This document shows, piece after piece, positions 3,074-43,095 of a stretch of 64,000 bases of DNA (positions within the stretch are counted from its first letter, which is position 1; the number at the start of each line of letters is the position of its first letter). This stretch comes from Pseudoxanthomonas sacheonensis (GTDB lineage Bacteria; Pseudomonadota; Gammaproteobacteria; Xanthomonadales; Xanthomonadaceae), in the NCBI RefSeq assembly GCF_010093305.1, contig NZ_PDWS01000022.1:1-64000 (forward strand), in the 5' to 3' direction. Position numbers and translations under genes: made by a program. The notes under the pieces were generated by a model that worked only from the letters and a program-made list of their open reading frames with translations, made no database searches and was not told the DNA's origin.

Positions 3074-5299
3074 TCAACCTCCCTGCTGCGGGGGTAGGGC
3101 GGCGTCTTTCGGTTCGGCGCGCCAGTGCGTGTACCCGCTATTGGGGCCGAACTTCCAGCGCGATTCCCATTCCTTTTCTGGCAGCCAGTGGCAGAAATAA
3201 ACGCCTGCTGGCCTTCCCTCATACGAACACCATGGCTCGCCATCGCGAATGTCCCATGGGCCATCATCTTCATCTTCGGCAAGCACTTCAAAGTGACCGT
3301 GCAAAACGTCAAATAGTTGACCGTCTTCAATCGCCGCGATCAGGACCGGCGTACCGTCTTCCGGCGCACTCTCAATTGGCAACCACTCCCCACCACCAGC
3401 GCCGGGCAGCGTGGGGGCGGTCTTGCGGGTGTTCCAGGCTTTGCGTGCGCCGTCTGCACCGAATCCGATGGCCTGCCATCCGCATTCCGGATTCGTGCAG
3501 TTCACGACGAACACGGCGCGACCGGGACCCGGATCGCCGAGCCTGCCTGTCGGATACGGACATTCATCCTGATCGACAACTGCGCCGCAGATACACGGCA
3601 ACAGCTCAATCAACGCCTGTAGGTCGGGGGTGGTCATGCCATGCTCCTGTAATGCGCCATCACAGGACGGCGCGCGATCGAGGTTTGTGGGTTCGCTCGC
3701 AGGCACAACGGCCGCTTGTTCTTGGCGCTCGGCAAACGTGTGCGCAACGATGGATGCGTACTTGTCCGTCTCGTCCACTTGCACCGACAACGGCGAGGGC
3801 AACTGATAGGCCAGCTCCAGCGCGTCATTGACATTCGCCGGCACGGCGCCAGACCCTGCACGCACGCGCCACCACTCGACCGCCTTGGCCAGCGCAAAGC
3901 CGCGGTGCTCCAGGCATACCCACTCATTGAACCGGCGCATGCCGCACTGATAGGTGACCTTCATAGACACGGGCTTGCCGGGCTTCTCGTGGCGCGCGTA
4001 TTTGACGCTGTCGACTACGTACTGATTGACGACGCGCTCGCGCTCGGTAGACAGCACCGCAGCGCCCGTGGGGCTGGCAAGGTGCGTCGGCCCAATCACC
4101 GGCCATGCGTAGCCGCACGCGCACAGGCGCGTTTGGATCGCCACAAGCGTCTCGCACTGCGGGCACTCTTTCGTCTTGCCGGTCGTGACAGCGGCAGCAC
4201 GTCCAGGCCGCGCACTCTGCACACGGATCTCGTCGACCGCACCGTGCTCTGTCACGTTCATGGCGTAGTCGAGCACCATGCAGTCCGTTTTCCCGGGGCA
4301 CAGTCGCAGGCCACGGCCGACCTGCTGGTAATAAAGCCCCGGGGACTTCGTCGGCCGCTTCATGGCGACCACGTCGATCATCGGGTTGTCGTAACCTTCC
4401 GAGGCGATGTTCACGTTCACCAGCCACCGATAGCGGCCTTCCTGATGCCCGTCGATCGCGTCCTGTCGGCCGGGGCTTCCTTGGTAGAGGACGGCCACTT
4501 TCTCGCCGTGACCGCGCAGCTCGTCGGCGACCGCGACCGCATGTTTCACGTTGACGCAGAACACGATGCCCGAGCGGCGTCCCTGCGTGCGTGCCAAGAG
4601 GTCAGCCACCGAACGCTCGACCAGCGGCAGCATGGCGTCGGCCAGCGCGTCCTCGATGTACTCTCCGCCGCGCTTCGCGACGCCGGAGAGGTCGGGACAC
4701 TCGCCCGCCTTGCTCACGAGCGGGCTAAGGTAGCCGTCGCGGATCAGGTCAGGAATGCGGGCCTCGAATGCGATCTCCGTGAGAATGTGCCCCGGGCCGC
4801 ACACCGGAACCGCTTGCCCCTGCAGGCGGTACGGCGTGGCCGTCATGCCCACCACGCGCACATTCGGGTTGGCTTGCTGGCATGCCTCGATAAACTGCAG
4901 GTACAGGCCTTCGCCGCGCAGCGGGATGCGGTGCGCCTCGTCAATCAGCAACAGGTCGAACCGGCCCAGCTCGTGCGCACGCTTGGCGACGCTCTGAATC
5001 TGGGCAAAGATGATGGGGTCGAACCGGTCGCGCCTTTTGAGCCCGGCCGCGTAGATGCCCATCGGCGCTTCGGGCCACACGACTTGCATTTTGGCTGCAT
5101 TTTGGCTGACCAATTCTTGGCTGTGCGCCAGCACGGCGACACGGCCGTTCCACTGCTGCACGGCGTCCTGCGCCATTGCCGCCATCAGTGGAGACTTGCC
5201 GGCACCGGTGGGCAGCACAATGGCAGGGTTGCCCTCCGAGTGCCTCAAATAGTCCCAGGCGCATTCTTTGGCGAGCTGCTGGTAGGGGCGGAGGATCAT
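3074..5299 (-). CDS. superfamily 2 DEAH helicase fused to a C-terminal Lar-like/DUF551-like module
   Basis: A protein of 741 residues. Residues 1-450 are a superfamily 2 helicase: Walker A PTGAGKS (30-36), DEAH box (120-123), motif III-like GMTATPYR (151-158) and a C-terminal helicase domain with QVGRGLR. A Cys-rich knuckle (CPQCETL, then CACGYAW) follows. From residue 555 (MTTPDL) the chain is a second copy of the Lar-like zinc ribbon plus WLPIESAPEDG domain found at 151-513. No stop separates the two parts. An internal ATG at 3635-3637 has AGGAG six bases upstream, so the 187-residue Lar part may also be made alone. The start at 5299 gives ATGA coupling to the exonuclease gene. It probably acts with the exonuclease and annealing ATPase in phage recombination or replication restart (inference). 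Confidence 0.85.
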   Translation of the reverse strand: MILRPYQQLAKECAWDYLRHSEGNPAIVLPTGAGKSPLMAAMAQDAVQQWNGRVAVLAHSQELVSQNAAKMQVVWPEAPMGIYAAGLKRRDRFDPIIFAQIQSVAKRAHELGRFDLLLIDEAHRIPLRGEGLYLQFIEACQQANPNVRVVGMTATPYRLQGQAVPVCGPGHILTEIAFEARIPDLIRDGYLSPLVSKAGECPDLSGVAKRGGEYIEDALADAMLPLVERSVADLLARTQGRRSGIVFCVNVKHAVAVADELRGHGEKVAVLYQGSPGRQDAIDGHQEGRYRWLVNVNIASEGYDNPMIDVVAMKRPTKSPGLYYQQVGRGLRLCPGKTDCMVLDYAMNVTEHGAVDEIRVQSARPGRAAAVTTGKTKECPQCETLVAIQTRLCACGYAWPVIGPTHLASPTGAAVLSTERERVVNQYVVDSVKYARHEKPGKPVSMKVTYQCGMRRFNEWVCLEHRGFALAKAVEWWRVRAGSGAVPANVNDALELAYQLPSPLSVQVDETDKYASIVAHTFAERQEQAAVVPASEPTNLDRAPSCDGALQEHGMTTPDLQALIELLPCICGAVVDQDECPYPTGRLGDPGPGRAVFVVNCTNPECGWQAIGFGADGARKAWNTRKTAPTLPGAGGGEWLPIESAPEDGTPVLIAAIEDGQLFDVLHGHFEVLAEDEDDGPWDIRDGEPWCSYEGRPAGVYFCHWLPEKEWESRWKFGPNSGYTHWRAEPKDAALPPQQGG

Positions 5300-6390
5300 G
5301 CCGCTTCTTTGACCCACTGCGCATCCGGCAGGTTCTGATTCCTGATCGCCTGCAGCTCATCGCTGCGCAACGCCGCCAGCGGAATGGCCGCCAGTTCCGT
5401 ACTTGAATAGCTCCCAACAGCACGCGGCCCGTTCCTGAACTTGAACCCGTCCGAGCACACGTACTGAACCCAGCCCTCCGACTCGCTTGCATCGTCCACC
5501 GCGCCCCAGGTAACAAGCGCCGGGATGAACAAGTGATCCGGGCATGCGGTGAACTGGTTCGTCAGAGTGAGATCGTGGCCATGCTTAGCGCACGACCACC
5601 GACCGTCGCCTTCCGGCTCGGGGGTGGCATGCAGGCACGTGCGGCAACTTACCTGGGGCATTTCGCCGCGATGGCAGACGCCCTGAGAAGGGCACCATTT
5701 GCACTTGAAGAACGCGGGGTCTGCCGACAGCTTCGGAAGAGGCTCGGCCGCGAAGATGATGCGCTCGGCCTTCTCCTCCAACTTCAGCGCGATCTCCTTA
5801 TTCGCATCCGTGCGCACGCTCACCGTCGTGCGGCCGCCAGGAGTGTCGCAGGTCAGGTAATGGCGGTCCATGCCGCTGTAGTGCATGTAGCAGATGGCCT
5901 GCGCGTAGTAGGTCGGGTTCCATGCGGCGAGTGCGTCTTTCTCGCCGTGCTTCGCCTTCAGGTTCTGCAAGCCGGAAGCCTTCTCGCTGACCTTGTGCTC
6001 CCATACGTGCCATGTCTTAGGCGCCTGCAGAATGCCCAGGATCGCCCCGTCGATGTTGCCGCGGAAGTGCCCCCCCAGCGCCTGAAACCCGAACTGCTTG
6101 CCGTCCTGCGGATTGTGCGTGTGCAGCTTCAGGCCCGGCACCATGCGAAGGCGCGCGGCCATCAGCTCTTCGCCGCGGTGCCCGTCTTCGAAGCGCCTTA
6201 AAGTCTCGGCGTCGAAGTTGTTCTCGTTCGTGAAGCGGAAGCTGTACCACTGCCGGCGCTCGCATTCCTCACCGATGAACGACATGCCCAGATAGCCGCG
6301 CTTCGGCTCGTTTTTCTGACGCGCGACGATGCTGCCGTCAATGGCGGCGAGGGTCGGGTCAGCGGTTGCGAGTTGCGGAAGCGCGGCCAT
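5296..6390 (-). CDS. PD-(D/E)XK (RecB/Cas4-like) phage exonuclease
   Basis: A protein of 364 residues with the core of the PD-(D/E)XK nuclease fold. The acidic residue of GNIDG (about 110-114) and the EHK of WHVWEHK about twenty residues later supply metal and catalytic positions. A Cys-rich region follows (CKWCPSQGVC, CRTCLH), as in Cas4/AddB-type nucleases that hold an iron-sulfur cluster or zinc. It is grouped with a DUF669 protein, a Sak4-like ATPase and a helicase, the usual recombination set of such phages. The likely role is 5'-3' resection for single-strand annealing (inference from context). Confidence 0.85.
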   Translation of the reverse strand: MAALPQLATADPTLAAIDGSIVARQKNEPKRGYLGMSFIGEECERRQWYSFRFTNENNFDAETLRRFEDGHRGEELMAARLRMVPGLKLHTHNPQDGKQFGFQALGGHFRGNIDGAILGILQAPKTWHVWEHKVSEKASGLQNLKAKHGEKDALAAWNPTYYAQAICYMHYSGMDRHYLTCDTPGGRTTVSVRTDANKEIALKLEEKAERIIFAAEPLPKLSADPAFFKCKWCPSQGVCHRGEMPQVSCRTCLHATPEPEGDGRWSCAKHGHDLTLTNQFTACPDHLFIPALVTWGAVDDASESEGWVQYVCSDGFKFRNGPRAVGSYSSTELAAIPLAALRSDELQAIRNQNLPDAQWVKEAA

Positions 6391-8972: not shown

Positions 8973-9244
8973 CGACGTATCTCCGTCTGGTGACCTTCTT
9001 CGATCTGTTCGGCGCTCAGCCGGCCATAGTCCATGCGCGGCGTGCGCCCGGCGTTTTCCTCGGCTTCGCAGCTGTCGCGGATCTCGTTTATCGACTCGTT
9101 GTTCATGTCGATCACGTCCAGGTTGTCAGGACGCGAGATCGCGGGCAGTGAGTCGGGGAAGGTGTTCGCGGCTGGCGGCGTCGGCCTTTCTGGCGTGCCG
9201 AAGATGGCCGTGAAGATGGTCTCGAAGACTGGGTGCGCACTCAT
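8969..9244 (-). CDS. 91-residue acidic phage protein
   Basis: The start is at ATG 9242-9244 (ATGA overlap with the first gene of the operon). It has a Pro-rich middle and an acidic helical C-terminal half (NNESINEIRDSCEAEENAG). No family is recognised. It is the second gene of the leftward early operon, so it would be made first after induction or infection. Confidence 0.55.
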   Translation of the reverse strand: MSAHPVFETIFTAIFGTPERPTPPAANTFPDSLPAISRPDNLDVIDMNNESINEIRDSCEAEENAGRTPRMDYGRLSAEQIEEGHQTEIRR

Positions 9245-9423
9245 TCCGCGTACTCCGCGCAGCGCTTGCACATCCCCCAGCCCGTCGGCGCATACTCGCC
9301 GCAGTCCTGGCAGAGGAAACCGAAGGTGCGAAATCCGATCGGCTGTGCGTCGGCGGGCAACAAGGCGGAAGCGGTGTCGAAATCGTATTCGGGAAGAAGG
9401 TTCTGGTTCGCGTTCGGGTGCAT
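9241..9423 (-). CDS. 60-residue zinc-ribbon protein, first gene of the leftward operon
   Basis: The start is at ATG 9421-9423 with GGAG seven to eight bases upstream. The C-terminal half has two Cys pairs (CQDCGEY and CKRCAEY) separated by about ten residues, a classic zinc knuckle. The N-terminal half is Asn/Pro-rich. It is the promoter-proximal gene behind the operator pair at 9450-9499, where an anti-terminator or early regulator would sit in lambda. That role is a positional inference only. Confidence 0.6.
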   Translation of the reverse strand: MHPNANQNLLPEYDFDTASALLPADAQPIGFRTFGFLCQDCGEYAPTGWGMCKRCAEYAE

Positions 9424-9449
9424 GTTCTGGCTCCGGCCCATTGATTGGG

Positions 9450-9466
9450 CGTAACACACCGTAACG
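9450..9466. promoter_or_regulatory. phage operator, left control region, copy A
   Basis: A 17-bp site CGTAAC-ACACC-GTAACG. Its left arm fits the consensus exactly and its right arm differs from GTTACG at one position. It lies 27 bases upstream of the first leftward gene, 33 bases centre to centre from copy B. It is probably bound by the phage repressor and Cro-like protein. Confidence 0.7.
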
Positions 9467-9482
9467 CATCACCTACCCGGAA

Positions 9483-9499
9483 CGCAACACACCGTTACG
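9483..9499. promoter_or_regulatory. phage operator, left control region, copy B
   Basis: A 17-bp site CGCAAC-ACACC-GTTACG, one change from a perfect palindrome. On the minus strand a TATAAA (9501-9506) lies just upstream, and a TTGCGT/TACGGT pair with an 18-base spacer spans copies B and A. Either could be the leftward early promoter controlled by these sites. Confidence 0.7.
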
Positions 9500-9550
9500 A
9501 TTTATAACAGAAAACAGTATCCCAAAAATAGAATTATTGATTTAGGCCAT

Positions 9551-9574
9551 AAAAAAGCCCGCGATGGCGGGCTT
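9551..9574 (-). terminator. Rho-independent terminator of the repressor operon
   Basis: On the minus strand the hairpin GCCCGC-loop-GCGGGC is followed by a run of T. It lies about 20 bases beyond the stop codon of the secreted-protein gene. It would end the leftward repressor transcript before it enters the leftward early operon. Confidence 0.85.
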
Positions 9575-9595
9575 CGTAACGGATGAAACTAGTTC

Positions 9596-10033
9596 TCAGA
9601 ACTCAGATTGGCATTCATCCACCTTGTCCACCAGGTCACAGACCGCGTATTCACCATCCTGACGTGCGCCGGATGGCCAAGGCACATACTGCGTGAAGAC
9701 CGTGTCGGCGCCGCGAATCTCGCTCAGCAAAGCCTGCGAAGCGGCCCCAGAGATGAACGTATCGCCGTGGTACGGCTTCCCTTTGCCGACGCGGATCCCG
9801 ATCTCCTCACGGCCAGGGTAGGGCTCGCCGGCGACGCCCAGGACCAGCTTTCCTGGCCCAGTAACAGCCGCGGTCACGGTGCCCTTTACCGACGAGAGGA
9901 CGATGCACGTCTTGGCGTCGGTCATCGCATCTACCTTGACCACCTTCCGGTAATGAATCAGCTCGCACTCTGTAGGCTCCTGAGCCTGCAGGCCAACCGG
10001 CGCCAGCGCCAGGCCAAGCAATAGCGCCCTCAT
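9596..10033 (-). CDS. secreted cysteine-containing protein co-transcribed with the repressor
   Basis: A protein of 145 residues with a clear Sec signal (MRALLLGLALAPVGLQAQ, cleavage likely after AQA or close by). The mature part has four Cys, enough for two disulfides, and is otherwise beta-rich with Gly turns. The start overlaps the repressor stop (ATGA) and a terminator follows the gene, so it is made in the lysogen. That expression pattern fits a lysogenic-conversion or superinfection-exclusion protein acting in the periplasm (inference). No family is recognised. Confidence 0.65.
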   Translation of the reverse strand: MRALLLGLALAPVGLQAQEPTECELIHYRKVVKVDAMTDAKTCIVLSSVKGTVTAAVTGPGKLVLGVAGEPYPGREEIGIRVGKGKPYHGDTFISGAASQALLSEIRGADTVFTQYVPWPSGARQDGEYAVCDLVDKVDECQSEF

Positions 10034-10362
10034 GCGGCCTCCTCGGCATCCGTCTTGGGACCGACCACGTCACGGCCGATCGCCACCCATCGCTGACGCT
10101 GCTCCGGCGTCATCAACCTATAGAGCTCGACCAGCTCCATCTCGTCACGTACTTCAATAACCACAGCGTCATCCCCTAATGCTTCCGCCACAGACATGCC
10201 CGCCCATCGGGCCATGACTTGAATCTCGTTCACATACGTGGGTCGCTTCCCCTGCAACTTCAGGGTGATGGCTTGGCCGGTAATTCCCAATTCCCGACCC
10301 ACTTCAGCACGGTTGACGTTCCGTGCGTCGAAGGCGGCAGCGACGCGGTTGAACCAGTTCAT
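10030..10362 (-). CDS. HTH phage repressor (CI-like, no peptidase domain)
   Basis: A protein of 110 residues starting MNWFNRV. A helix-turn-helix is visible at about 18-45 (RAEVGRELGITGQAITLKLQ), followed by NEIQVMARWAGMSVAEALG, the usual XRE-type repressor fold. No S24/LexA-type autoproteolytic domain is present, so RecA-triggered self-cleavage is not expected. It faces the Cro-like gene across three copies of a 17-bp palindrome. An upstream in-frame ATG (10381-10383) exists, but the fold begins at 10362. No good Shine-Dalgarno is seen for either start. Confidence 0.75.
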   Translation of the reverse strand: MNWFNRVAAAFDARNVNRAEVGRELGITGQAITLKLQGKRPTYVNEIQVMARWAGMSVAEALGDDAVVIEVRDEMELVELYRLMTPEQRQRWVAIGRDVVGPKTDAEEAA

Positions 10363-10381
10363 GATCGGAGGAGACTCTCTC

Positions 10382-10409
10382 ATTAAGTGCGACGGAAAGC
10401 GTAACCCAA
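10382..10409 (-). promoter_or_regulatory. candidate repressor-maintenance promoter
   Basis: On the minus strand TTGGGT (10404-10409) and CTTAAT (10382-10387) are separated by 16 bases. Operator copy C covers the -35 element, so the repressor could control its own synthesis. The predicted leader is only about a dozen bases. This was read by eye. Confidence 0.45.
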
Positions 10410-10416
10410 CGTTACG
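10400..10416. promoter_or_regulatory. phage operator, right control region, copy C
   Basis: CGTAAC-CCAAC-GTTACG, with both arms perfectly palindromic. It is nearest to the repressor gene, and its centre is 25 bases from that of copy D. Confidence 0.75.
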
Positions 10417-10424
10417 CATCACTT

Positions 10425-10441
10425 CGTAACACCCCGTTGCG
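10425..10441. promoter_or_regulatory. phage operator, right control region, copy D
   Basis: CGTAAC-ACCCC-GTTGCG, one mismatch from perfect symmetry. It is the middle of three sites and overlaps the likely -35 element of the rightward promoter. Confidence 0.75.
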
Positions 10442-10465
10442 AACGTCGTGACGGTGTGTTACGGT
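10437..10465 (+). promoter_or_regulatory. candidate rightward early promoter (PR-like)
   Basis: TTGCGA (10437-10442) and TACGGT (10460-10465) are separated by 17 bases, and both are covered by operators D and E. The Cro-like start codon is only eight bases past the -10, so the message would be nearly leaderless; indeed no Shine-Dalgarno is present. Confidence 0.55.
10447..10463. promoter_or_regulatory. phage operator, right control region, copy E
   Basis: CGTGAC-GGTGT-GTTACG, one mismatch from symmetry. It lies 22 bases centre to centre from copy D and immediately upstream of the Cro-like gene. Confidence 0.75.
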
Positions 10466-10472
10466 TCCGTGC

Positions 10473-10739
10473 ATGAGAGCCATCACGCGCCTTAGACAAA
10501 CCGGAATGACCACGGCGGAGATCGCTGCTGGCATTAAAGACAAGTCGGGTGGGCACCTGGTCCGCATGTATGAGAACTACACGCGCTTTCCTGGTCGCGA
10601 ACGATTCGTCTGCCTCATAGAGCTTGCCGAACTGCGTGGCATCACACTGGTTGCTCGCGACTTCATTCCGCCTGCATCCGAAATAGCTTGCGAGGATTCG
10701 GTCAGCAAGCCTGCGCGCAGTAAGCGAAAGAAGGGTTGA
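10473..10739 (+). CDS. Cro-like regulator
   Basis: A protein of 88 residues, the first rightward gene opposite the repressor. The N-terminal segment GMTTAEIAAGIKDKSGGHLVRMYEN reads as a helix-turn-helix, and the C-terminus is strongly basic (KPARSKRKKG). Position, size and the overlapping operators fit Cro. There is no Shine-Dalgarno and the start is close to the predicted -10, so leaderless translation is likely. It is separated from the CII-like gene by a terminator, as in lambda. Confidence 0.65.
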   Translation: MRAITRLRQTGMTTAEIAAGIKDKSGGHLVRMYENYTRFPGRERFVCLIELAELRGITLVARDFIPPASEIACEDSVSKPARSKRKKG

Positions 10740-10746
10740 GTTCACG

Positions 10747-10777
10747 GGTCGGTCTCTTCGGAGGTCGGCCTTTTTTT
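10747..10777 (+). terminator. tR1-like terminator between cro-like and CII-like genes
   Basis: A ten-pair stem (three G-T pairs) with a TTCG loop occupies 10747-10770 and is followed by seven T. The position between the Cro-like and CII-like genes matches tR1 of lambdoid phages. An anti-termination mechanism is implied if the downstream replication genes depend on this transcript. Confidence 0.85.
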
Positions 10778-10834
10778 GTACATCGAAACACATGTCCGCC
10801 GCTGTACCCCGCGGCCGGACACAAGGGGAAGACC

Positions 10835-11224
10835 ATGGAGAACACACAGGTGCCGCTGTTTGTGGAAGACCTCAATGAGGCAATCCGCGCGACGGTCAAC
10901 TGTCTGGGTGGTTTCAAGGCCGTGGGCGTTGAACTGAAGCCGGAGAAGTCTGCAGTGGATGCCGGTAAGTGGTTGGCCGACTGCCTGAACTCCGCCAAGC
11001 GCGATCGACTGGATCCGGAACAGCTGGCTTATATCCGGCGGCGCGCGCGCGCGGCAGGGTGCCATGTGCTGGCCGCGTTCGAGATGCAGCAGGCGGGCTA
11101 TGCGCCGCCGGTCGCCATCGCGCCGGCTGATGAAGCGGCGGAACTCAAACGGCAGTTCATCGAGTCCACCAAGATGCAGGCACTGATCGTGCAGCGTCTT
11201 GAGCGTTTGGGGATGCACGCATGA
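10835..11224 (+). CDS. CII-family phage regulatory protein (CP76-like)
   Basis: A protein of 129 residues; start at ATG 10835 with AAGGGGAAG upstream. The segment from LNEAIRATVNCLGGFKAVGVELKPEK through DCLNSAKRDRLDPEQLAYIRRRARAAGCH follows the pattern of the Phage_CP76/CII regulatory family, which has a helix-turn-helix near its start. It sits in the cII position, just after the terminator. A role in choosing lysogeny by activating repressor or integrase transcription is inferred from the family and position. Confidence 0.7.
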   Translation: MENTQVPLFVEDLNEAIRATVNCLGGFKAVGVELKPEKSAVDAGKWLADCLNSAKRDRLDPEQLAYIRRRARAAGCHVLAAFEMQQAGYAPPVAIAPADEAAELKRQFIESTKMQALIVQRLERLGMHA

Positions 11225-11409
11225 ACTCCCGCCTCTGCACCCACACCGGCGCCATCGACCTGATCGCCACCCTGATCGCGCGAAGTTGCCAGTTCGCCGT
11301 CGTGCCCATGGGCGATGAGTACCAGGTCAGCTGGCCTGACCTGTCGCGCGCGCCGGCACAGGTGCCGACCGAGTATCCGACGCCGCCGAACGGGCCGAGG
11401 GCTGCGTGA
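11221..11409 (+). CDS. 62-residue small early protein
   Basis: A small soluble protein with a Pro-rich C-terminus. The start overlaps the CII-like stop (ATGA) and its stop overlaps the methyltransferase start (GTGA), which is the main evidence for a gene. No domain is recognised. Confidence 0.5.
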   Translation: MNSRLCTHTGAIDLIATLIARSCQFAVVPMGDEYQVSWPDLSRAPAQVPTEYPTPPNGPRAA

Positions 11410-40161: not shown

Positions 40162-41121
40162 CTAGAGCCGGTCGGCGAGGTCGTCGGGGTCGGTGTTGTA
40201 GTAGATCAGCAGGCTCCTCAAATCCCGGTGGCCGATCATCCGGGCCAGCTCCATCACGTCCAGCTTCTTCGACAGTCGCCAAATCGCCTCGGCCCGGCTG
40301 TCGTGGAAGTGCAGGTCGCCCAGCTTTGCCGAATCTCGGGCCTGCCGCCAAAGGGTGTCCCGGCTCCCGGCATCCAGGTTGAACACCGTGGGTTGATCGC
40401 GGGGCAGGGCGGCCAGTATCTCTCGCGCCCGCGCCGACAAGGGGACCACGCGAGCATCCCCATTCTTCGTGTCCGGCAATCGGGCCGACTTCGCGCCAAC
40501 GTCGGGCCACGTCAGGCCCAATATCTCCCCCGCACGCATAGCCGTCTCGAGCGCGAACAGGAAGGCCAAGCCGGTACGCTGGGCGGCCGTCTCCGATTCC
40601 AGGTCAGTCAGGCCCAGGGCCAGCGTTACGCGCTCGATTTCGTCCTCTGTGATCCGCCGTTTCCGGCTGGGCGCATGGGGCGGCTTCTTCACTCCTCGAG
40701 CCGGGTTCGCCCGGAGCCAGCCCCACTCGGTCGTCGCCAGCTCGAGCACGGACAGCAGAAGGTTCATTTCCCGGCGCACGGATGGCCCTGTAACGTCCAG
40801 CAAGCGGCGCTGCTTCCATTCGGCTATATCGGCCGCCCGAAGCACGGGAAGGCGCACAGACGCCAGCGGATCGCGCTCCATCGCCAATAGCCGGGCCTGC
40901 TCCCACTTCTTGCCCTTGCGGCCCGCCGATACCTCCTCTGAAAACCGCTGCAATGCGTCCTTGACCGACTTGTCCGGTAGGCGCTCGCCAGTGAGTTCGG
41001 CCTCGCGCTGGGTTGCCCATGCGGCGGCCTGTTGCTTGGTCGGAAAGCTGGCGGACTCGCGCTTGCCGCCCTTGTAGAGTTCTACGCGCCAGGTTGCCCC
41101 GCGCTTTCGGATGGACGCCAT
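40162..41121 (-). CDS. int: tyrosine recombinase integrase
   Basis: A protein of 319 residues. It has an arm-binding N-terminal domain (MASIRKRGATWRVELYKGGK), a SAM-like core-binding domain and a complete catalytic set: R196, K219, H273 and R276 in HDSR, H298 and Y307 or Y308. It catalyses integration and excision of the prophage. It is transcribed towards the tail genes, with its start facing nuoA, so the attachment site should lie between 41,122 and the nuo promoter. No excisionase was recognised. Confidence 0.95.
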   Translation of the reverse strand: MASIRKRGATWRVELYKGGKRESASFPTKQQAAAWATQREAELTGERLPDKSVKDALQRFSEEVSAGRKGKKWEQARLLAMERDPLASVRLPVLRAADIAEWKQRRLLDVTGPSVRREMNLLLSVLELATTEWGWLRANPARGVKKPPHAPSRKRRITEDEIERVTLALGLTDLESETAAQRTGLAFLFALETAMRAGEILGLTWPDVGAKSARLPDTKNGDARVVPLSARAREILAALPRDQPTVFNLDAGSRDTLWRQARDSAKLGDLHFHDSRAEAIWRLSKKLDVMELARMIGHRDLRSLLIYYNTDPDDLADRL

Positions 41122-41428
41122 GGCGGCATCGTGGCGTAGCCGCTGGCGTAATGGAACCCGGGGTAGGGCACTTATCCACAGATTGGGGCGGAAGTGAGCC
41201 GATGCCGGAATTCCGACATCGCCAGCAATAGCAAGGGTTGGCGTTCAATGACCCCCTCCGGCTACAATGCGCGGCTCCCACGAGACACCCCTCTTGGGCA
41301 CCAAGATGCGAATTCTTCTCGAAGCCCCCGTGCCGACGCGCGGACTTGTGAGGGAAAACGCGAATCCGGCGGAACCCGTGCGCGCACCGGCGCGCGCATT
41401 CCGCAGGCCAACCAACCGAGGACCACGC
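41122..41428. other. intergenic region between integrase and nuoA, likely right attachment side
   Basis: The region holds a consensus DnaA box TTATCCACA (41172-41180), a near-perfect 20-bp palindrome GATGYCGGAATTCCGRCATC (41201-41220) and the nuo promoter. No tRNA is found here, although related genomes have a tRNA-Leu near this place. From 41,270 on it is a GC-rich leader without a convincing gene. Confidence 0.6.
41238..41268 (+). promoter_or_regulatory. candidate nuo operon promoter
   Basis: TTGGCG (41238-41243) and TACAAT (41263-41268) are 19 bases apart, somewhat longer than ideal. The start codon of nuoA is about 160 bases downstream. It would be the main promoter of the fourteen-gene operon. 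The prophage ends just upstream, so the original upstream control may be changed. Confidence 0.5.
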
Positions 41429-41785
41429 GTGCTGGCCGAATACCTGCCGACCCTGTTGTTCCTGATCGTCGCTACCGGCATCGGCGTTTCGCTGATGGTG
41501 ATAGGACGGTTCCTCGGCCCCCGTCGTCCCGACGCGCAGAAGCTCTCCCCGTACGAATGCGGCTTCGAGGCCTTCGAAGACGCGCGCATGAAGTTCGACG
41601 TGCGCTATTACCTCATCGCCATCCAGTTCATCGTCTTCGACCTGGAAATCATCTTCATCGTGCCCTGGACCCTGGTCTGGCAGGAGCTGGGGGCGCGCGC
41701 GCTGGTCACCATGGGCCTGTTCGTGGGCATGCTGTTCCTCGGTTTCATCTACGTCTGGAAGAAGGGAGCCCTGGAATGGGAGTGA
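41429..41785 (+). CDS. nuoA: NADH-quinone oxidoreductase subunit A
   Basis: A protein of 118 residues starting at GTG 41429 with GAGG seven bases upstream. Three membrane helices are visible, with the conserved loop PYECGFEAF between the first two. It is a membrane subunit near the quinone site of complex I. It overlaps nuoB by ten bases. Length and sequence are normal. Confidence 0.97.
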
Positions 41786-42330
41786 TCCAAACCATCGATC
41801 GCCTGATGACCAACCCGATCCCGGAAGGGCGGGTGGACGACATCCTGCGGCCCGAAGGCGAAAACCCGCTGCTGGAAAAAGGCTACGTGACCACCAGCGT
41901 CGATGCGCTGATGAACTGGGCGCGCACCGGCTCGATGTGGCCGATGACCTTCGGCCTGGCCTGCTGCGCGGTGGAAATGATGCATGCCGGCGCCTCGCGT
42001 CTGGACCTGGACCGCTATGGCGTGGTGTTCCGCCCGTCGCCGCGCCAGTCCGACGTGATGATCGTGGCCGGCACCCTGGTCAACAAGATGGCCCCGGCGC
42101 TGCGCAAGGTCTACGACCAGATGCCGGAACCGAAGTGGGTCATCTCGATGGGCAGTTGCGCCAATGGCGGCGGCTATTACCATTATTCGTATTCGGTGGT
42201 GCGCGGCTGCGACCGCATCGTGCCCGTCGATGTCTACGTGCCGGGCTGCCCGCCGACCGCAGAAGCGCTGGTCTACGGCATCCTGCAGCTGCAGAAGAAA
42301 ATCTGGCGCACGCAGACCATCGCACGCTGA
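41776..42330 (+). CDS. nuoB: NADH-quinone oxidoreductase subunit B
   Basis: A protein of 184 residues starting at ATG 41776 inside the end of nuoA. It carries ligands of the terminal [4Fe-4S] cluster N2: the Cys pair in ACCAVEMM, and cysteines in GSCANGGG and [11 protein letters not shown]2 donates electrons to quinone at the interface with NuoD. Complete. Confidence 0.97.
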
Positions 42331-42366
42331 TCCATCCCTACTTATTACCGAGCACGCCACGCCCCC

Positions 42367-43095
42367 ATGGCCGAGCAAGCTGCAACCTACATCGAACAAC
42401 TGCAGGCGCGTTTTCCGGACGCGATCCTCAGCATCGCCGAAGCGCGCGGTGAAGTGACGCTGGAAGTGCCTGCCGACAGTTGGCACGCCGCCTGCCTTTC
42501 GCTGCGCGACGACTTCGGTTTCGAGCAACTGGTGGACCTGTGCGGCGTGGACTATCTGGGCTACGGCAGCGACGAGTGGGAAACCGCCAACGTCTCTTCC
42601 GAAGGCTTCAGCCGCGGCGTCGAACTGGGCTTCGGCCCGGGCCGCTTCACCTGGGAAAACCGTCCACGCGGCGAAGGCCCGGAGCACCGCTTCGCCACCG
42701 TCGCCCATCTGCGCTCCTACCGGCACAACCGCCTGTTGCGCGTGCGTTGCTACGCCGCCAACGACGAACTGCCGATGGTGGCCTCGGTCACCGACATCTG
42801 GCCGGGCGCCAACTGGTTCGAGCGCGAGGCGTTCGATCTGTTCGGCATCCTTTACCAGGGCCACCCGGACCTGCGCCGCATCCTGACCGACTACGGTTTC
42901 GTCGGCCATCCGTTCCGCAAGGATTTCCCGCTGATCGGTAACGTGGAAGTCCGCTACGACGAAGAGAAGAAGCGCGTGATCTACGAACCGGTGACTTCGG
43001 TCGAACCCCGCGTCGGCGTGCCGCGCGTGATCCGCGACGACGCCCGCTACGCCACTGCGGCTGGCGAAGCCGCCCTGAGGGAGCCCGCCAAGTGA
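42367..43095 (+). CDS. nuoC: NADH-quinone oxidoreductase subunit C
   Basis: A protein of 242 residues with the subunit C motifs [20 protein letters not shown] and [10 protein letters not shown]. It is a separate protein, unlike the fused NuoCD of Escherichia coli. The C-terminal tail of about 40 residues after the core is Arg/Ala-rich. It belongs to the peripheral arm. It overlaps nuoD by GTGA. Confidence 0.97.

Follow-up and report, generated by a model that had tools for sequence, protein, structure and literature searches.

In a 64,000-nucleotide stretch of Pseudoxanthomonas sacheonensis DNA (contig NZ_PDWS01000022.1, positions 1 to 64,000; hereafter the window), five copies of the 17-bp palindrome CGTAACn5GTTACG lie within the immunity region of a prophage occupying roughly the first 41 kb; two are at a left operator (OL) position, and three are at a right operator (OR) position between the gene for a 110-residue repressor and the gene for a Cro-like protein. 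The conserved layout strongly suggests, and in our judgement makes it very probable, that these elements form a lambda-type OL/OR switch in which a repressor without a self-cleavage domain would repress the rightward promoter (PR) and the leftward promoter (PL). The sites and the two regulatory genes, the latter including a Cro/C1-type helix-turn-helix (HTH) protein, are as follows, with mismatches counted against the consensus.

9450-9466, no strand: OL site, CGTAACACACCGTAACG, 1 mismatch; rank 4 in the window with the relatives' matrix described below; its minus strand carries the putative PL -10 TACGGT (9463-9458).
9483-9499, no strand: OL site, CGCAACACACCGTTACG, 1 mismatch; rank 1 with the same matrix; its minus strand carries most of the putative PL -35 TTGCGT (9487-9482).
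10030-10362, minus strand: repressor gene, 110 residues; lambda-repressor-like domain and C-terminal helices; weakly matches phrog_4583 (transcriptional repressor) at E 1.8e-5.
10400-10416, no strand: OR3, CGTAACCCAACGTTACG, 0 mismatches; over the putative repressor-promoter -35 TTGGGT (10409-10404, minus strand).
10425-10441, no strand: OR2, CGTAACACCCCGTTGCG, 1 mismatch; its right half is most of the putative PR -35 TTGCGA (10437-10442).
10447-10463, no strand: OR1, CGTGACGGTGTGTTACG, 1 mismatch; its right half starts the putative PR -10 TACGGT (10460-10465).
10473-10739, plus strand: Cro-like gene, 88 residues; Cro/C1-type HTH.

A motif count over the whole window recovered all five near-perfect 17-mers exactly where the original prediction, made from the letters of this stretch, had placed them (9450, 9483, 10400, 10425 and 10447, with 1, 1, 0, 1 and 1 mismatches and centres 33, 25 and 22 bases apart). 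At no more than one mismatch, five places were observed against a mean of 0.02 expected, and five or more were reached in 0 of 100 dinucleotide shuffles; at up to three mismatches the count was not special (20 observed, 16.5 expected), and the signal therefore resides in the near-perfect copies. The window was also scanned with a scoring matrix derived solely from 18 sites in three relatives, the window's own sites being excluded. The five sites ranked at the top with scores of 20.1-22.3, the next best place (13.6) was at 9758, and a crowd of equal matches elsewhere in the window was not seen; in 100 simulated windows, the maximum score averaged 13.1 and was never above 18.6. The ordinary count at three mismatches would fit repeats that are a product of chance, of base composition or of tandem repetition; however, the shuffles never yielded five near-perfect sites and the positions are conserved over seven loci, and the probability of such an origin is next to nil.

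The rest of the genome (4,036,284 bases) contained one additional place at no more than one mismatch, C20:17258, within a 399-residue reading frame. This bears on a second explanation, namely that the sites belong to a regulator of the host which phages exploit, as phages are generally known to do; however, a single further site in 4.04 Mb, and that inside a reading frame, argues against it, as do the association of the motif with the phage regulators across loci and its shift alongside the repressor in one relative (L044, below), and we consider a host regulator highly improbable.

Six other lineages, of phages or prophages, were found by repressor, Cro-like and operator-pair searches to encode relatives of both regulators. 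They are represented by the loci L005 (with L006, L007 and L041-L043), L008 (with L025 and L045), L011 (with L013, L016, L018, L026, L033, L035 and L047), L027 (with L046 and L049), L040 and L044; their repressors are 64% (L005), 61% (L008), 53% (L011 and L013) and 38% (L027) identical to that of the window and, by tblastn, 53% (L040) and 46% (L044). Three sites lie between repressor and cro in all seven loci (the window and the six relatives), with OR1 25-26 bases and OR2 47-48 bases upstream of the cro ATG in every case. Beyond the repressor, two OL sites are present in the window, L005, L040 and L044, three in L011 and L027, and four in L008. A distance of 33 bp between OL sites is also seen in L005, L040 and L044, and it occurs once within the four-site OL of L008; the spacings between OR2 and OR3 (25, 25, 25, 35, 35, 36 and 45 over the seven loci) fall into classes about one helical turn apart. 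For the content of the leftward operon, the family library scans covered that of the window. It had been predicted that a 2+3 pattern copies OL/OR logic with a different sequence; the logic is strongly supported by six diverged relatives that share this layout and carry either an identical motif or a recognisably drifted one, but the numbers are not fixed, since the OR count is three in seven of seven loci and the OL count is two, three or four.

With matrices that left out one locus at a time, 38 of the 39 sites in these loci outscored every non-site of their own locus, the exception being OR2 of L044 (rank 10). Mismatches to the consensus numbered one or none in 29 sites, two in seven, and three or four in the remaining three, all of which are in L044, where the site set was accepted by a relaxed motif together with position. 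Taken together, the comparison establishes the five sites as conserved predicted operators by their identity, their linkage to both regulators and their positions.

The operator pair alone was also used as a query. Against 2.9 million viral contigs it returned three stretches, all three on contigs with both regulators and one of them new (L027; by tblastn, its repressor is 39% and its Cro-like protein 48% identical to those of the window), and a second pair pattern returned two stretches in the viral contigs, both at loci already found. A slightly laxer pair pattern gave seven stretches in genome contigs; the regulators were present at one (L033) and the other six had no tblastn match at E 0.01, which indicates that the laxer pattern has chance matches in genome contigs. 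L033 is from Pseudoxanthomonas dokdonensis (NZ_LDJL01000011); its repressor is 53% identical to that of the window, and its regulators are 100% identical to the repressor and Cro-like sequences of the prophage of G191, a genome in the same genus group as the host of the window. A first scan of the genome contigs returned no relative despite L033 and was treated as a false negative. The regulators are rare: with the window's genome included, the repressor was found in 3 of 297 genomes of the family (one match being weak) and the Cro-like protein in 2 of 297, with 2 of 38 genomes at the level of the genus, and in the order a repressor alignment matched 8 of 397 genomes, with six of these matches no better than E 4e-4 to 1e-3.

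More distant look-alikes were searched for the motif in the same way. No site at up to two mismatches was present in L009 (32% identical over part of the protein) or in L014 and L015 (29%), and the repeat list of L009, inspected by eye, held no comparable operator set. L048, a partial Cro match, had a single three-mismatch place at 6306, far from the match. Among the nine loci with weak matches (L019-L024 and L037-L039; E 4e-4 to 1e-3), eight had no site at up to two mismatches, and L020 had one with two. Separately, three near-identical sites of the CGTAACTCGTCGTTACG type with an exact 25-bp spacing were observed at 6094-6160 of L030, from a Burkholderiaceae metagenome-assembled genome; the 8-kb locus contains no relative of either regulator, and these sites are possibly an unrelated operator or iteron.

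The structural model of the repressor is fairly confident, with a mean predicted local distance difference test (pLDDT) score of 83 and the last 10 residues below 50; past residue 70 it consists of two helices followed by a low-confidence tail. In VIA-align comparisons the model matched ImmR (Z 10.3, root-mean-square deviation (rmsd) 1.8, 64 residues aligned), DdrO (Z 10.1, rmsd 2.1, 66 aligned), P22 c2 (Z 9.8, rmsd 2.1, 65 aligned) and the lambda CI N-domain (Z 8.9, rmsd 6.2, 79 aligned), and the top Foldseek matches were the 434 and P22 c2 domains at modest E values of 0.017 and 0.027. The 110-residue repressor has, as modelled, a lambda-repressor-like fold. No S24 peptidase match was obtained in Pfam or NCBIfam, and hence no self-cleavage domain was detected. 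The protein had been described as an unrelated short repressor; it is indeed short, with 110 residues and no cleavage domain, but it is not unrelated, given the fold of its model, whose best matches include ImmR, DdrO, P22 c2 and the N-domain of lambda CI. A tblastn search of 50,697 phage records with the repressor gave 17 records, in all of which the match was partial, with E between 0.06 and 0.07; the matched proteins were CI-type repressors of Salmonella phages and HTH proteins of Arthrobacter phages. The DNA of 9200-11300 had no match in these records.

For the Cro-like protein of the window, the Pfam, NCBIfam and PHROG scans gave no credible family match of its own. Two of three relatives (L008 and L011) passed the cut-off of the Pfam family HTH_31 and L005 missed it; an alignment of four Cro-like proteins matched a lambda-repressor-like PDB chain at E 2e-4, and Foldseek matches of the model were weak (best E 1.2). 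These data indicate that the Cro-like protein carries a lambda-repressor-like HTH, which is assigned to the window protein through its relatives and model only. There was no tblastn match to this protein in the 50,697 phage records, a set in which the presence of N15 and phiKO2 was unchecked.

The transcription signals proposed around these genes are the following.

10437-10465, plus strand: putative PR, TTGCGA-17-TACGGT, with the ATG 7 bases on; aligned by eye in seven loci.
10380-10409, minus strand: putative PRM-like promoter of the repressor, TTGGGT-18-TAATGA; read from sequence.
9458-9487, minus strand: putative PL, TTGCGT-18-TACGGT, across both OL sites; read from sequence.
10746-10771, plus strand: terminator-like hairpin and T run just past the Cro-like gene, at a tR1-like position; found by scan.
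9551-9573, minus strand: terminator-like hairpin and T run between an accessory gene of the repressor operon (below) and OL; read from sequence and absent from the terminator scan list.

By eye, a -35-like element lies within OR2 or at its end, and TACGGT or TACGCT lies in and just past OR1, in seven of seven loci, with a spacer of 17 or 18, and the ATG follows the PR-like -10 after 6 or 7 bases in all seven. Owing to this short distance, the cro mRNA is predicted to start at or beside its AUG, and the cro transcript is probably leaderless. The strong tR1-like hairpin implies either attenuation or an antitermination system; in L044, the terminator after the Cro-like gene has an imperfect stem, as judged by eye. 

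From this layout we infer dimeric binding, the promoters, the leaderless start, the preferences of the two proteins for sites and the regulatory outcome as set out here. A dimer of the repressor would bind the 17-bp palindromes. During lysogeny, repressor at OR1 and OR2 would cover the -10 and -35 of PR and silence the rightward operon (the Cro-like gene, a DNA methyltransferase and a primase), and repressor at the two OL sites would cover PL and silence the leftward recombination operon, while its own promoter would stay on. OR3 is assigned as the site at which the repressor is shut off because it overlaps the -35 of the repressor promoter; the Cro-like protein would be the chief agent of this shut-off in lytic growth, with a possible contribution from excess repressor. 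In lytic growth, Cro-like protein made from the leaderless mRNA would close OR3 and hence the repressor promoter, and the terminator directly past the Cro-like gene would attenuate the rightward operon. A repressor without a cleavage domain would presumably be removed by an antirepressor, by proteolysis or by dilution.

To relate the repressor to its sites, the recognition segments were compared, and the segment is GISGQAVGQKLSGKRG in L044 versus GITGQAITLKLQGKRP in the window. Most L044 operators are CGAAAC/GTTTCG-like. Where residue 34 is Leu (four loci), none of the 46 half-sites has A at position 3; where it is Met (L027) or Gln (L040 and L044), 9 of 32 half-sites have A there, six of them in L044. 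Residue 34 aligns with Gln33 of the 434 repressor, which we take to be a base-contacting residue. The reading head of the L044 Cro-like protein (TPHSIRLYERG) is close to that of L011 (TTHSIRYYERG); because this head is little altered while the repressor helix and the sites have changed, the repressor appears to be the main reader of the sites. Altogether, these data, from a small and related sample, point to a joint change of the repressor recognition helix and most operators in L044.

OR3 differs from the other sites of the seven related loci. OR3 has the perfect GTAACn5GTTAC core in seven of seven loci; elsewhere the core is perfect in 5 of 32 sites (Fisher p 5e-5). The outer bases of OR3 deviate from the consensus in six of seven loci, compared with 6 of 32 sites elsewhere (p 0.002). 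In L044, OR3 alone retains the family motif and has the best score of the locus (15.9), while OR1, OR2 and one OL site have shifted to CGAAAC. Two forms of the lambda-type switch can be weighed against these observations. In the sharper form, which resembles the N15 and phiKO2 arrangement, the repressor would occupy all five sites and the Cro-like protein OR3 only, so that it would repress the repressor but not itself. The distinct core and outer bases of OR3 and its retention of the motif in L044 argue for this form, and it has known precedents, since Cro is described as exclusive to OR3 in phiKO2 (PMC4997575) and as acting alike in PY54 (PMC4488713); the parallel with phiKO2 suggests OR3 as the Cro site here as well. 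However, the halves of OR1 and OR2 are also constrained as promoter elements, an alternative cause that could mimic the special character of OR3, and we regard this form as a serious candidate at somewhat less than an even chance. In the classical lambda form, both proteins would bind all sites with opposite orders of affinity and Cro would repress PR and PL late; a single motif at every site, and the overlap of the sites with the putative PR, PL and repressor promoter, are consistent with this. However, the recognition segment of the Cro-like protein lacks the conservation seen in the operator core, and OR3 is consistently different. We place this form just below an even chance.

A Cro-like protein that acts mainly at OR3 appears to explain the comparative data no less well than one that acts at all sites, and it probably does act mainly at OR3. 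Joining this with the changes in L044, it is conceivable, albeit on the unlikely side, that one and the same 17-mer is read in different ways by a repressor of about 105-110 residues and by a Cro made from a leaderless mRNA, each using its own features of the site, the repressor sites drifting with residue 34 (L044 and L040 being natural intermediates) and Cro holding OR3 in the ancestral state. If true, immunity specificity would evolve while the Cro arm of the switch stays intact. 

It should be noted that several observations weigh against the lambda-type switch as proposed. A strict sigma-70 consensus scan of 9400-10800 yields no promoter; the prediction that every copy overlaps or adjoins a plausible promoter is weaker than stated on this point, the putative promoters being read from elements that are conserved across the relatives. 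The absence of a Shine-Dalgarno sequence before cro is only a trend (median -2.8 for seven cro starts versus -5.75 for 26 hand-picked ATG starts, p 0.08), and the value for L044 is -6.2. By a strict rule, a tR1-like terminator is present in only three of seven loci, versus 12 of 600 random 150-base windows. The place at 9758, which lies inside the accessory gene and has two mismatches, is an extra match in the window, where it is the best non-site both with the relatives' matrix and in the leave-one-locus-out scans; it was excluded from the 39-site set. OR2 of L044 is off-motif, so that the sites of this locus lean partly on position. The residue-34 and OR3 tests use seven related loci, so that their p-values overstate independence. 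Lastly, the reading head of Cro differs from relative to relative, with a two-residue insertion in the window copy, which makes binding by Cro the least certain step.

The family library scans also describe the setting of the switch. The leftward operon contains genes for a Sak4-like annealing protein, SSB, a Cas4-type exonuclease and a helicase. On the rightward side lie genes for a DNA methyltransferase, a primase, a RusA-like resolvase, an exonuclease, an endolysin and a terminase, and an integrase gene is at 40162-41121. By eye, the integrase adjoins apparent host NADH dehydrogenase genes (40162-42367), and at the other end (1-600) the contig begins amid prophage-like genes. The gene at 513-852 matches phrog_464 (unknown function), and over 729-852 its DNA shares 72% identity with Gordonia phage records, one of which is annotated DUF4326. 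No antirepressor was recognised in the family scans of the window proteins, which covered only part of the genes. A 129-residue early protein (10835-11224) matches phrog_24214 (unknown function), and L044 has what looks like a relative of it in the corresponding place (4270-4713); it is possibly a second regulator at the CII position. A CII analogue was considered for this protein from a likeness, but Pfam and NCBIfam gave nothing, and the assignment is not claimed.

In lambda, rexAB occupies the slot between the repressor and OL, and the repressor operon of the window has an accessory gene in this rex-like position.

9596-10033, minus strand: accessory gene in the repressor operon, 145 residues; phrog_11231 (unknown function); apparent signal peptide by eye.

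The accessory protein had no match among the 50,697 phage records. A small gene occupies the slot in four of the seven loci (window 9596-10033; L008 4327-4548; L011 2177-2449; L027 2332-2619), and in the other three (L005, L040 and L044) only 64-87 bases lie between repressor and OL. The four slot proteins appear by eye to be secreted, membrane-bound or lipoprotein-like and have no mutual similarity at E 1; their rexAB-like position makes superinfection-exclusion genes a lead for them.

No description of the operator set or its switch was seen among the papers listed by the literature searches, which were covered by titles and the beginnings of abstracts and lay mostly outside subscription journals, and a family of phage switches in which repressor and Cro may read different features of one site was likewise not found there. 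The system is a small switch whose operator set is fully predicted and which has several natural variants; in one of these, the repressor and operators have apparently changed together. It opens two questions: how a phage can acquire a new immunity specificity and still have a functional switch, and what inactivates a repressor that has no cleavage domain.

Several known systems invite comparison. The likeness to lambda is in the 17-bp operators over PL, PR and PRM, which are putative promoters here, and in gene order: in lambda, the leftward operon is followed by OL, the rexAB slot, the repressor, OR and cro, and the layout here is alike. Lambda operators are arranged 3+3, and its CI is self-cleaving. 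In the published comparisons, lambda has six operators in all (PMC4488713, PMC4997575). Another small phage repressor, PDB 5d4z ('Repressor from Salmonella-temperate phage'), has a 102-residue chain and is only a weak fold match to the window repressor (Foldseek rank 42, E 0.22). We take this structure to be SPC32H Rep. SPC32H Rep binds DNA as a tetramer and is undone by the antirepressor Ant (PMC9638917). The repressor gp33 of mycobacteriophage BPs is similarly short (103 residues in the prophage) and has several operators; however, its full operator consists of a 12-bp palindromic half site and a variable half site with a variable spacer, and its immunity is integration-dependent (PMC4557955).

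Among known switches, those of N15, phiKO2 and PY54 come closest. In the telomere phages N15 and phiKO2, three OR sites lie between divergent repressor and cro genes and two sites lie at OL, which gives five operators in all (PMC4997575); the same 3+2 count is present in the window, L005, L040 and L044, while L008 has 3+4 and L011 and L027 have 3+3. In phiKO2, the five operators are all sites of the repressor CB, OR3 is the sole Cro site and the outermost bases decide, and for the immB region of N15 and phiKO2 that account reports that no RecA cleavage site was detected in CB (PMC4997575). The differences are that the N15 and phiKO2 operators are 16 bp long with the form T-A-(N)10-T-A, whereas those described here are 17 bp with a 5-bp centre; that CB of phiKO2 is about 37 kDa, compared with 110 residues here; and that OL of N15 and phiKO2 controls the plasmid replication gene repA, their prophage being a plasmid (PMC4997575). 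In PY54, the cro and cI mRNAs were mapped as leaderless, Cro acts at OR3 and two outer base pairs decide its specificity; the leaderless cro predicted here and the action of Cro at OR3 proposed here would be alike, whereas PY54 has one recognisable OR operator and its CI binds sites of marginal similarity (PMC4488713). An OR3-specific Cro, as in PY54 and phiKO2, and a leaderless cro, as in PY54, may therefore be more widespread. Altogether, the comparison suggests that the Pseudoxanthomonas switch is of the lambda type with the 3+2 operator count of N15 and phiKO2, and that its operators differ from theirs in sequence and size.

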